Positions 6,645-61,103 of a DNA stretch of 64,000 bases are shown piece after piece; position 1 is the stretch's first letter; every line of letters begins with the position of its first letter. This DNA is from Candidatus Hydrogenedentota bacterium (GTDB lineage: Bacteria > Hydrogenedentota > Hydrogenedentia > Hydrogenedentales > JAEUWI01): contig JACPGE010000001.1 in assembly GCA_016182605.1 (NCBI GenBank), positions 1 through 64,000 of the forward strand, written 5' to 3'. Both the position numbers and the translations under genes were made by a program. The notes beneath the pieces were generated by a model. It was not told the origin of the DNA. It searched no databases and was given only the letters and a program-made list of their open reading frames with translations.

Positions 6645-7618
6645 GACAAGAGTTCCCCTTGCGAATTTTTGCGCGCGCCCCCGGACGATAGGATAGGCGC
6701 ATGGGTGGGGCGGCTGCAAGGTGAGGCGGGGAGCGGTGGTGGAGAGACGGAAGTCGGAAGTCGCGTGGGGCAATGTCGAGGAGGATTGCGCTTCGCGTAC
6801 CACAGAGCACACGGCAGGGGAAAATATGTGGTGGGGGCGTCCTGCCCGCATTGCGTTTTTTGGGTCTCTGATCGAGTAGGTTCTTGTCTTCTTATTCGTG
6901 TGTCTTGGCGTTCATTCGTGGTCTTCTCCGTTGAAGGAATCAAACCACGAATGAACACGGATGAACGCGAATGGGAGAGGGGAATCAAAGCCGAGTGCGA
7001 CTCGGCGATCCCGGGGAGGAGATTCACGCAAAGACGCCAAGCCGCAGAGCCGGTCTTGGGTACGATTGAGATCTTCGGTTTCCGGGGACGGCCCCTCGCC
7101 GGTGCGGGATGGTGCTGCGGGGTGGGTGTTTGTGGGGCCGGCGGGGACAGCCCCGAATGGCGCTAACTTAAGAGACAAGTCATGCTGATGTCTGGTCTTG
7201 CGTAAGGTTTTTACATCCCCCCTTCCCCTTCGAAGGGGACCATTTCAACGTTTGGAACGTCATTGTTAGAGTGTGGTGCGGCTGGCTCGTGTGGAAATGC
7301 CTACGCTCGGCGAGCGAAGGCCTACTTTGTCCGGTTTGTTGATGTCATTCACGTGTTTTTTCGTGGCAATGCTTCGAGCCAGGTCCTTAAGTGAGTGCCA
7401 TTCGGGACGGCCCCCTTGGGTTGGAGCGGCGTTCGTTGATGTAAGGATGGGTGCGTCGGGAGTAGCACGTCGCTCGCCGAGCGTCGTGATTGGGGCTACA
7501 ACGTGCACGGCCTGCTGCAAACAACAGCGGCCCCGGGGGAGACTCATCGCCCCGGCGGGGAGGTAAGGCTACAGACTGTCCAGTAAGGCAGAGTCCGGAG
7601 TGCTGTCCGTGTCGTTGA
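6645..7618. repeat. Repeat-rich intergenic region, about 970 bp
   Basis: No gene is supported. The region holds several dispersed repeats: 6976-7045 (hairpin element also at 121-180, with CACGCAAAGACGCCAAG recurring at 62265-62280), 7078-7156 (approximately 80-bp GGGGACAGCCCC element), 7213-7240 (CATCCCCCC...CTTCGAAGGGG, the palindrome of the DUF559 region), and 7299-7325 (CCTACGCTCGGCGAGCGAAGG, also at about 52757 and 63943). 7462-7500 is another inverted repeat, GTAGC...GCTAC, built around TCGCTCGCCGAGC. Any promoter for the minus-strand gene starting at 6644 should lie just above 6645, but none stands out. Confidence 0.65.
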
Positions 7619-56245: not shown

Positions 56246-57610
56246 GGCAACCCGCGCTTCACCATTATCGGCGGCGGCATCTCCGGACTCTGCACGGCGT
56301 TCTATCTTGCGAAGGAATACGGCCGCGATGCGGTGACCGTGCTGGAGGCGGACACGCGCCTGGGGGGCACGGCGCGCACGGATACGGCGGACGGCTTCAC
56401 CACGGAGTGGGGGCCGAACGGCTTTCTCGACAAGGAGCCGCTTACGCTGCAATGGGCGGACGATCTGGGTCTGCACGATCGCCTGTCCCGCGCCAATGAG
56501 AATGCGGCACGGCGCTTCATCTATGCCCACGGCCGCCTCAACGAACTCAAGGGGCCGCCTGCATTTCTGTTTTCGCCGCTAATGAGCGCCGCGGGCCGGC
56601 TGCGGCTGTTGTGCGAGCCGTTCATCCCCCAGCGCACGAGTCCCGAGCCCGAGTCCATCTGGAATTTTGCCGCGCGCCGCATTGGCCGCGAGGCAGCGGA
56701 CGTCATGGTGGCTTCCATGGTCAGCGGGGTCTATGCGGGCGACGCGAAGCAGCTCAGCCTCCAGCACTGCTTCCCGCGCATGTATCAGTTGGAGCGCGAT
56801 CATGGCGGCCTTTATCGTGCCCTGCGCGCGATCAAGAAGCAGGACCCCACCGCGAGCCCCATGGGCCCCAAGGGCACGCTGACCACGTTCATCGGCGGCA
56901 TGGGCGAATTGATCGAGACTGCGGGCCAGGCCCTGGGCGATCGCGTGCGGCTGGGGGCCTCCGTGAAACGCGTCACCCCCGCAGACGGCGGGCACACCGT
57001 TGAACTCGACGGCGGCGAGTCGATGCAGACGGAACACGTCATCTTTGCCGCGCCCGCCTTTGCCGTGGCCGGCATGATCGAAGCGGCAGAGGCCCAGACC
57101 GCAGCCCGGTTGCGCAGCGTGCCCTACGCCAGCATTTCGGTGGTGTGTCTCGCCTTCGAACGCAGCCAGGTAAAGCATGACCTGAACGGGTTTGGATTTC
57201 TTATCCCGCGCACGGAAGGGCTCCGTGGTTTGGGCTGTCTCTGGACCTCCTCGCTTTTTAATCACCGTGCGTCCGATGGCAAGGTGCTGCTGCGCATCAT
57301 GTACGGAGGCGCCACGGACCCAGGCATTCAGGATCTCGATGACGACGCGCTCACGGCACTGGTGGCAAAGGAGATCTACCCCATCCTCGGCATCAGCGGC
57401 GCCCCCACGATGTGCCGCATCTACCGCCACGGCCGCGGCATTCCGCAGTACAGCTTGCAGCACCAACAGGTGCTCGATGCAGTCGACGCCCTCGAAGCGC
57501 GCCAGCCCGGCCTGCACTTCGCAGGCAACGCCTACCGCGGCGTGAGCCTGAACGATTGCGTCGTGAGCGCCCGCCGCGTGTTGGGGAGAATCAAGGCGGC
57601 AACGGGTTAA
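56246..57610 (+). CDS. hemY: Protoporphyrinogen oxidase (HemY type), start not resolved
   Basis: About 454 residues of an FAD-dependent oxidase making protoporphyrin IX, the step after hemN. The dinucleotide motif FTIIGGGISGLCTAFYLA begins at 56258, VLEADTRLGGTARTD follows, and the C-terminus has GLHFAGNAYRGVSLNDCV. There is no ATG, GTG or TTG between an in-frame TAA at 56243-56245 and the FAD motif; the first GTG (56333) would cut the motif off. The preceding codons in the neighbouring frame (DNDKATR) would join well with FTIIGG, which points to a frameshift near 56253-56258 or a sequence error. Otherwise full length. Confidence 0.85.
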   Translation, partial: GNPRFTIIGGGISGLCTAFYLAKEYGRDAVTVLEADTRLGGTARTDTADGFTTEWGPNGFLDKEPLTLQWADDLGLHDRLSRANENAARRFIYAHGRLNELKGPPAFLFSPLMSAAGRLRLLCEPFIPQRTSPEPESIWNFAARRIGREAADVMVASMVSGVYAGDAKQLSLQHCFPRMYQLERDHGGLYRALRAIKKQDPTASPMGPKGTLTTFIGGMGELIETAGQALGDRVRLGASVKRVTPADGGHTVELDGGESMQTEHVIFAAPAFAVAGMIEAAEAQTAARLRSVPYASISVVCLAFERSQVKHDLNGFGFLIPRTEGLRGLGCLWTSSLFNHRASDGKVLLRIMYGGATDPGIQDLDDDALTALVAKEIYPILGISGAPTMCRIYRHGRGIPQYSLQHQQVLDAVDALEARQPGLHFAGNAYRGVSLNDCVVSARRVLGRIKAATG

Positions 57611-57738
57611 GGCGTGCAATCCGCCCAATCGGAATTGAGCGCTACGTAGCTCCCTTTTCCGAATGGGAGTAGGATTGCCGCGCGTTCACGTTTGGAATGC
57701 GGTAGCTATTTTCGCGAGTGCCGAGCCATGGGGTAAGT

Positions 57739-58043
57739 CTAACATCCCCCCTACCCCCCTTCGAATGGGGACCCATGCTTTAGCCTCTCTGATGCATCCG
57801 CTGCTTCGGCCAAACGCGCGCGCCAAGGGTCGAAGCCTTGGATTGTACGGCAGCTATTTTCGCGATGGGCTGCGTTTGGATGTGCGCGCGGGGTCCGATC
57901 GACGCGGAGCGTCCGGGACTGCCTTCCCAAGCAGCGCTTCTGAACAAGGGAAGATTCCGGGCAATGATACGTGCAGAGATTCGGAACGCGGCCCCCCCAG
58001 CATTTGTTGGTCCCCCTTCGAAGGGGGGTAGGGGGGATGTTAG
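57739..58043. mobile_element. MITE-like element 1 (305 bp)
   Basis: The left end CTAACATCCCCCCTACCCCC continues through CTTCGAATGGGGACC; the right end is its inverted copy, GGTCCCCCTTCGAAGGGGGG then TAGGGGGGATGTTAG. The interior includes GATGCATCCGCTGCTTCGGC and GATCGACGCGGAGCGT, both shared with element 2, and a fragment of the nuclease gene's 5' end. It codes for nothing convincing. Confidence 0.65.
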
Positions 58044-58120
58044 TGCTTTTCCTAATCCTCGCCCCTGCGCACACTGCCCAGATCTGCATGAAAATCACCA
58101 GGGATTCCAGGCACGCTCAG

Positions 58121-58504
58121 TCAATCCTCGCTATCGCTGGCAAGCCAATCGCGAATTGCAGCAACAACGCCCTCCAAATTCTTTCGGACATCACGCTCTC
58201 CAAAACGGAGAAATCGCACTCCCAGCGCCTCCAATTCCCGCTGCCGCTTCAAGTGATGTGCGTACGCACCGGCATCCTCATGACTCGATCCATCCACCTC
58301 GATGGCAAGCATGCGCTCAAGGCAGAAGAAGTCCACGATGTACTCGCCGATGGGAACCTGCCGGTGAAATTCGGGACCCAAGGCACGATTCTTGACGGCA
58401 CTCCATAGCAAGACTTCGCCCAAGGTTCCTTCTTTGCGCAGGGCGCGCGCCAAGGGTCGAAGCCGTGGATTGTACGGCAGGTATTTTCGCTTGTGCCGGG
58501 CCAT
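58121..58504 (-). CDS. DUF559 endonuclease-domain protein
   Basis: 127 residues. LRKEGTLGEVLLWSAVKNR, GPEFHRQVPIGEYIVDFFC, LAIEVDGSSHEDAGAYAHHL and RFLRFGERDVRKNLEGVVAA are the DUF559 signature. The fold is that of Vsr-like PD-(D/E)xK nucleases; Asp58, Glu69 and Asp71 are the expected metal ligands. The cellular role of the family is not known. The ATG at 58504 abuts a copy of the terminal repeat (58514-58549), and its first 20 codons recur as broken copies nearby, so gene and repeat seem to have moved or been amplified together. Confidence 0.88.
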   Translation of the reverse strand: MARHKRKYLPYNPRLRPLARALRKEGTLGEVLLWSAVKNRALGPEFHRQVPIGEYIVDFFCLERMLAIEVDGSSHEDAGAYAHHLKRQRELEALGVRFLRFGERDVRKNLEGVVAAIRDWLASDSED

Positions 58505-58569
58505 GGGGTAAGTCTAACATCCCCCCTACCCCCCTTCGAAAGGGGGACCCAAGTTTCGGCTACTTTGGT

Positions 58570-58652
58570 GTATTTGCGGTTTCAGCAAACGCGCGCGCCA
58601 AGGGTCGAAGCCTTGGATTGTAAGACAGGTATTCTCGCTTGTGCCGCGCCAT
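58570..58652 (-). pseudogene. Truncated 5' copy of the DUF559 gene
   Basis: Read from the ATG at 58652, this encodes MARHKREYLSYNPRLRPLAR, nearly the same as the intact gene's MARHKRKYLPYNPRLRPLAR, then loses similarity. A second remnant at 57700-57729 encodes MARHSRK followed by a stop, and a third at 57811-57865 keeps YNPRLRPLARA. Confidence 0.8.
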
Positions 58653-58661
58653 GGGGTAAGT

Positions 58662-58968
58662 CTAACATCCCCCCTACCCCCCTTCGAAGGGGGACCCAAG
58701 CCTCCGCTTCTTTGATGCATCCGCTGCTTCGGCCATATGTGCGTCGAAATGGGCTTCGTTTGGATGTGCGCGCAGTTTCTGATCGACGCGGAGCGTCGGG
58801 GACCGCACTCCTTAGTAGCGCTTCGGAAAGCGGGAAAACATCCGTGGCTTCAGCCAGGTTATTGGTGGCTGTGGTTGCCCTCTTCTAAGCTTCTCAGAAG
58901 TATCAGCGGTTCCAGTCACCCCCCGCATTTGTTGGTCCCCCTTCGAAGGGGGGTAGGGGGGATGTTAG
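58662..58968. mobile_element. MITE-like element 2 (307 bp)
   Basis: Same terminal inverted repeats as element 1 (CTAACATCCCCCC at the left, GGGGGGATGTTAG at the right) and almost the same length. Interior similarity includes GATGCATCCGCTGCTTCGGC and TTTGGATGTGCGCGC, but the two are well diverged. Its left flank is the truncated nuclease copy; its right flank repeats that of element 1. Confidence 0.65.
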
Positions 58969-59171
58969 TGCTTTTCCTAATCTTCGCCCCCACGCACACC
59001 GCCCAGACCTGCACCATCAAACGCCAAGTATGTGCCACACTCCGCTCCAGATCCACAATCTTCGCACACAAAATCTCCGCCCATTGACTCCCCGCCCCTG
59101 AGGGTGCGATCATGGGGGCACGCCTCGAAACGGGCGCGGGAGTGTGCGGTCTTGCCCGCGGGCCCGAGTGA

Positions 59172-61103
<1,932 letters not shown>

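Follow-up and report, generated by a model that had tools for sequence, protein, structure and literature searches.

What connects the gene for a small, putative nuclease of the DUF559 family with the palindromic repeats that surround it? We addressed this question in a 64,000-nucleotide stretch from a Candidatus Hydrogenedentota bacterium (GCA_016182605.1, contig JACPGE010000001.1, positions 1 to 64,000; hereafter the window), in which such a gene lies within an array of five repeats of about 35 bp. DUF559 (domain of unknown function 559) is a very common protein family, and BoxC/PIT/triplex repeats, the class at issue here, have been known from E. coli since the 1990s and found in hundreds of genomes. 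A sequence-only reading of the window had proposed that nuclease and non-coding repeats propagate together, in the way that REP-associated tyrosine transposases (RAYTs) and repetitive extragenic palindromic (REP) sequences do. Linkage, matching of repeat type and co-occurrence in genomes support that proposal; that the nuclease is the mover is what we infer from them. We give a probability of about 0.68 to the locus being one unit of a selfish, REP/RAYT-like nuclease-repeat system with a different chemistry.

A DUF559 gene bracketed by inverted hairpin-plus-tail repeats

The gene is itself the interior of a canonical unit, which the sequence-only reading had missed together with the class of the repeats:

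58009–58549, minus strand: canonical unit of ~540 bp, built as hairpin-tail-DUF559-tail-hairpin, with inverted repeats bracketing the gene
58009–58043, plus strand: repeat 3' of the DUF559 gene, reverse; on the plus strand, hairpin and then tail
58121–58504, minus strand: DUF559 nuclease gene, 127 aa, predicted PD-(D/E)XK (Vsr-like) fold
58514–58549, minus strand: repeat 5' of the DUF559 gene, forward

Read along the gene strand, the hairpins lie outermost: the first hairpin and its tail end 9 bp before the ATG, and ~80 bp after the stop codon the second tail and its hairpin follow. In each repeat a 2-nt linker (TA) joins a palindromic hairpin (CCCCCTTCGAAGGGGG) to a G-run tail (GGGGGGATGTTAG). 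All five repeats that had been described, in the order forward, reverse, gene, forward, forward, reverse, were located and are mutually 97–100% complementary. By sequence, their hairpin-plus-tail build places them in the BoxC/PIT "intrastrand triplex" class, which is known from E. coli and >260 genomes (PMC4666352). The genome-wide search with the repeat that the sequence-only reading had proposed returned 20 copies at ≤3 mismatches and 0 control matches, and a generic hairpin-plus-tail pattern gave 73 matches in the window genome versus 0 for the reversed pattern (overlapping matches within one copy are counted separately, as also in the counts for the 49 DUF559-bearing genomes below). Because both controls were empty, the repeat is not a chance pattern. 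Its exact form is essentially absent from 59 relatives.

The encoded protein matches PF04480 (E=4e-26, 91.5 bits against a gathering cut-off of 20.6), and its gene is the sole DUF559 gene found in the 6.76-Mb window genome. Residues E30, D58, E69, D71 and H75 are invariant across 32 DUF559 sequences. An AlphaFold2 (AF2) model of the protein (mean predicted local distance difference test score, pLDDT, 86.3) was compared with known structures using Foldseek, which ranked the DUF559 protein 3HRL at the top (E=1.9e-6), followed by the homing endonuclease I-Bth0305I (3R3P, E=1.1e-3, TM 0.74 on the target) and then, more weakly, Vsr. Family match and predicted-structure matches bear out the Vsr-like PD-(D/E)XK fold that had been suggested; model and conserved acidic residues together indicate a fold of this type, and cleavage activity is putative. 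The E. coli DUF559 protein YcjD has been assigned to the PD-(D/E)XK superfamily (PMC1189080).

Repeats accompany DUF559 genes across phyla

We collected 80 further DUF559 loci from >10 phyla by a three-sequence alignment scan. C-run hairpins reached a density of 6.1/kb within 100 bp of DUF559 versus ~0.04/kb at 2–6 kb, a drop of >100-fold, and one lay ≤700 bp away in 73/80 loci. As a within-locus control, all other hairpins at the same loci stayed near background. C-run palindromes with differing cores surround nearly all full-length DUF559 genes of the window's order (L021–L036); no such flanking repeats were seen around partial DUF559 domains in large unrelated proteins (L037–L050). The orientation is fixed as in the window: of the nearest repeats, 45/56 on the upstream side and 31/43 on the downstream side lie hairpin-out and tail-in (together 76/99, p=8.5e-8).

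Repeats of four types could be assigned in 59 rows and were mapped onto a DUF559 tree built from 120 columns, in which many forks are weak. Repeat type changed 6 times on this tree, compared to a shuffled mean of 32.4 (minimum 27), and 4 times within Bacteroidota alone, compared to 18.8 (minimum 14); for phylum labels the tree gave 18 changes. Repeat type follows the nuclease tree, not phylum. All four types are present within Flavobacteriaceae alone, and a single genome (G055) holds two, one of which brackets the DUF559 gene on contig C978 and the other those on C213, C259 and C415.

The motif also occurs genome-wide in 46 of the 49 genomes behind the DUF559 loci, with up to 283 matches and only a handful for the reversed pattern. 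Among 200 Flavobacteriaceae genomes, at least 2 matches were present in 49/79 with a full-length DUF559 gene versus 1/121 without (p=1.5e-24), and presence of DUF559 is patchy even between relatives. The association is weaker in the window's order, in which repeats were scored as present in 12/15 genomes with full-length DUF559 versus 11/44 without (p=4e-4). The sequence-only reading had named beforehand two outcomes that would speak against it, namely independence of DUF559 and repeat across genomes and a lack of empty-site alleles. Independence was not found across phyla, and empty alleles were found, in frame at leuS.

Within the window's order, 42–133 hairpin-plus-tail matches were counted in G004, G005, G009, G010, G018, G035 and G048, genomes in which full-length DUF559 was not detected.

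Complete units at ectopic sites

Three units in G055 lie on three contigs; the two that we compared match over ~590 bp and lack homology beyond their terminal repeats, and the third has the same terminal repeats at its start and end. In several Flavobacteriaceae a complete unit sits in frame within leuS, between the sequences encoding NWIGRSxGASVxF and IEVFTTRPDT, and its end repeats encode peptides such as LPLTPSEGGG and SSGEGWGE. Of the 118 relatives in which leuS was matched, ~90 have the gene uninterrupted at this site. Occupied and empty alleles at one defined insertion site were found at leuS only, and these alleles belong to different species. A type I methylase (hsdM) frame contains a DUF559 unit and two further in-frame repeat insertions (L024, genome G038). 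Units also adjoin hisD- and hemD-like frames, and here DUF559 forms in-frame fusions with the end of the former and the start of the latter (L199, L192, L200, L208). When plasmids and phages were searched with the window protein, distant relatives only were returned and no young empty site. Mobility of the unit would explain the in-frame inserts in leuS and other genes, which would otherwise be misread as protein domains.

Further insertions were noted. In some alleles the editing-domain site of leuS in Flavobacteriaceae (L253–L263) also holds other small insertions, which encode peptides such as HSELVSES and SEAKQSP and mark the site as a hotspot of short elements inserted in frame. In L027 (G024) a DNA methylase has a Hint/intein-like insert (DPTC...HN|CGSGTT) that contains a DUF559 domain and encodes C-run repeats. 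A solo repeat stands in frame in a cytosine methylase gene of the window genome (L015 position 1504; C129:21828), with AAGAGGA on both sides.

The repeats fit a purine-motif triplex register

The sequence of the E. coli repeat forms a triplex in vitro, as observed by circular dichroism (CD) and nuclear magnetic resonance (NMR) (PMC4666352). By analogy, the window repeats may fold as an intrastrand purine-motif triplex; the fold is predicted for them, and the CD/NMR data are those of the E. coli sequence. The register of a class II (purine-motif) triplex is present as pyrimidine arm, loop, purine arm, linker and third strand. On the minus strand, the gene-proximal copy at 58514–58549 reads CCCCCTTTCGAAGGGGGG-TA-GGGGGGATG and accommodates 9 triads in an unbroken row.

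In the purine motif G pairs with G and A with A or T, with the third strand antiparallel, and the tail should therefore mirror the purine arm. Consistent with this rule, arm A goes with tail A/T in 22 versus 4 cases and arm G with tail G in 68 versus 4 (p=4e-14), and run lengths of arm and tail are correlated (rho=0.59). An earlier test found 7/7 positions matched in 41/62 repeats, compared to 11.9 with tails shuffled. All three figures count instances, with relatedness uncorrected. Type matching inside single genomes, for which motifs were picked by hand, argues against ancestry alone as the source of the covariation. A G-quadruplex is a possible alternative to the triplex for this repeat.

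The array is a tandem duplication with one gene retained

The rest of the array comprises the following features:

57704–59013, no strand assigned: array, a ~924-bp tandem duplication of spacer plus DUF559 unit, with the gene retained in single copy
57739–57773, minus strand: outer repeat, forward, with a DUF559 5'-end remnant (57704–57738) at its tail (family D1)
57811–57863, minus strand: DUF559 5' coding relic within the "305-bp element", 89% to 58438–58490 and 92% to 58586–58638 (family D2)
58586–58660: DUF559 5' remnant, after the 58662–58696 repeat in gene direction
58662–58696, minus strand: outer repeat of the second, decayed unit, forward (families D1, D2)
58934–58968, plus strand: outer repeat of the second, decayed unit, reverse, with a 3'-end remnant reaching 59013 (family D3, 94% over 95 nt)

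Corresponding repeats are separated by 923 bp (57739 to 58662) and 925 bp (58009 to 58934), and these distances, together with the repeat families D1–D4, are the basis for calling the array a tandem duplication. The decayed DUF559 5' ends at 57811–57863 and 58586–58638 are copies of gene positions 58438–58490. Forward copies have the tail on the left and the hairpin on the right, and the hairpins of the 305- and 307-bp pieces therefore face inwards. The sequence-only reading had taken these pieces for elements enclosed by two repeat pairs. They are homologous duplicated spacers that carry relics of the nuclease gene.

Weighing the explanations

The explanation that we favour is that a small Vsr-fold nuclease, encoded between two inverted hairpin-plus-tail repeats of the BoxC/PIT class, would recognise its own repeat type, probably in the folded state, and would cut or nick repeat-bearing DNA. 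Host repair would then copy the unit, or nuclease-less solo repeats, to new sites, as RAYTs do for REPs. Recognition of the folded repeat, cutting at it and spread driven by the cut are the three steps that we infer beyond the data on linkage, orientation and insertion.

Several observations weigh against this explanation. A PD-(D/E)XK nuclease is by itself unable to join DNA. In the window's order, 11 of the 44 genomes without full-length DUF559 have at least 4 motif matches, and the ten of them with at least 28 are the chief evidence against a strict dependence of the repeats on the nuclease; repeats can abound without a detectable nuclease, which may reflect incomplete metagenome-assembled genomes, gene loss or another mobiliser. 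The insertions yielded no reproducible target-site duplication, the single 7-bp direct repeat being AAGAGGA at L015, which is ambiguous as a duplication because phage homologues differ there in loop length. The leuS units could possibly descend from one old insertion lost many times. When the tail-arm test was run on distinct types it did not reach significance (p=0.064), which we attribute to misassigned tails; the value of p=4e-14 given above is from a cleaner extraction over instances. Finally, a DUF559 protein of Caulobacter has been argued to act in mismatch-type repair (PMC12907096).

This last point belongs to an account in which DUF559 acts as a repair nuclease, specific for structures or for mismatches, while the repeats are either elements that regulate it or obstacles that it removes, and linkage is maintained by selection instead of selfish spread. 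Such a role would suit the Vsr-like fold, the SOS induction of Caulobacter VsrA and its tie to cytosine methylation (PMC12907096), and the association of triplex repeats with genome instability (PMC4666352). A housekeeping gene would not be expected to be so patchy among relatives, to arrive as complete units in the reading frames of leuS and hsdM, to occur as several genes with different repeat types inside one genome, or to be accompanied by up to 283 dispersed motif matches, and we consider this account improbable. Somewhat better placed, though still unlikely, is the possibility that something else, such as replication slippage or a Y1/RAYT transposase, spreads the repeats, and that DUF559 is a homing endonuclease gene for which they are dispersed, harmless targets to settle in. 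The closest non-DUF559 fold is that of the homing endonuclease I-Bth0305I, the L027 domain lies in a Hint/intein within a DNA methylase, repeats persist without DUF559 in several genomes, and the window genome has 10 Y1_Tnp matches. A gene that merely settles does not account for a repeat type that follows the nuclease clade across phyla, or for one fixed orientation between repeat ends. We rejected Y1/RAYT as the mover: G128 and G299, which have 41 and 33 motif matches, yielded no Y1 transposase, and none of the repeats listed for the window genome lies ≤8 kb from a listed Y1 gene. The view that ordinary terminators, or a composition effect beside small genes, account for the hairpins has very little left to recommend it beyond the frequency of GC-rich hairpins as terminators. 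C-run hairpins alone fall off so steeply with distance from DUF559 while other hairpins stay near background, reversed-pattern controls are near zero, and the partial domains of L037–L050 are without such flanking repeats; on the within-locus and reversed-pattern controls we rejected terminators and composition as the source.

Relation to known systems

The selfish nuclease-repeat unit that we favour resembles REP/REPIN sequences and their RAYT (TnpA-REP) in that short inverted palindromes flank a single gene, are dispersed elsewhere as non-autonomous copies, and are of a type that goes with the gene clade. The enzyme differs: RAYT is an HUH/Y1 tyrosine enzyme, whereas the bracketed gene here is DUF559, with a PD-(D/E)XK-type fold, no Y1_Tnp lies near the listed repeats, and the repeat hairpin has a triplex-forming tail. 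Since the defining enzyme of RAYT systems is absent, we place the unit as a separate variant among enzyme-linked interspersed palindromic repeats. With BoxC/PIT/TMECO it shares a hairpin with a C-run arm, a short linker (TTA/CCG), a G-run tail matching the purine arm as third strand, and occurrence as dispersed single copies and inverted pairs; BoxC/PIT/TMECO were published as structure-only repeats, whereas the window repeats are the ends of DUF559 units. Homing endonucleases of the I-Bth0305I type (Vsr-like, EDxHD) offer the nearest solved fold outside DUF559 and a similar selfish nuclease logic, but in classical homing each gene has a single fixed target and the terminal repeats of the DUF559 unit occur at dozens of sites. 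Like insertion sequences with miniature inverted-repeat transposable elements, the system has a gene between inverted repeats and gene-less derivatives; unlike them, it has no DDE, HUH or serine/tyrosine recombinase, and its ends are triplex-type hairpins. No consistent target duplication was seen.

YcjD and NGO0050 (3HRL) belong to the same DUF559 (PF04480) family as the window protein, and the open-access papers found describe no link of either to repeats. The ycjD gene of E. coli K-12 (1351407–1351760) lies 168 bp from BoxC copy no. 9 (1351204–1351239; table of PMC4666352), and a second, degenerate BoxC copy overlaps its 3' end; both copies look intact in strain KE47. The origin of BoxC/PIT was called unclear in 2015, with no nuclease named and no tie to mobile elements seen (PMC4666352). 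A 2026 study reports that ycjD and the eefRABCD operon alternate at one site and does not mention the repeats (PMC12817139). We considered fabI-sapF as an empty site in E. coli and rejected it, as ycjD plus BoxC versus eefRABCD is a replacement and not a clean empty site.

These results suggest that, in DUF559, a repeat class that is among the most widespread in bacteria has its long-missing partner. The link, which we did not find in the open-access literature (subscription journals and preprints were outside the search), offers a candidate enzyme for the repeats and a candidate substrate for the enzyme, and makes both testable in E. coli K-12 with ycjD and its adjoining BoxC. It points to a parallel to REP/RAYT on another nuclease fold, possibly with recognition of three-stranded DNA. 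The wider proposition that DUF559 proteins are dedicated enzymes of a bacteria-wide class of mobile DNA, with ends that are recognised in the form of folded intrastrand triplexes, we hold only tentatively, at somewhat less than even odds. If true, it would add a third repeat-mobilising chemistry beside HUH (RAYT) and DDE and would account for how BoxC/PIT repeats arose in E. coli and in hundreds of further genomes.

Surroundings of the array

The array lies between two genes named from their open reading frames, not by family search:

ending at 57610: hemG-like gene, on one side of the array
starting at 59223: thiC-like gene, on the other side

A sixth, degenerate palindrome had been noted at 7213–7240. 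It belongs to a separate inverted-repeat element of ~270 bp at 7143–7414, which has terminal inverted repeats of ~30 bp, GGGGACAGYCCCGAATGG (GGGGACAGYCCCGAATGGCRCTAACTTAAG), and carries the palindrome in its middle. This element has >20 copies or fragments in the window genome that carry a version of the palindrome.
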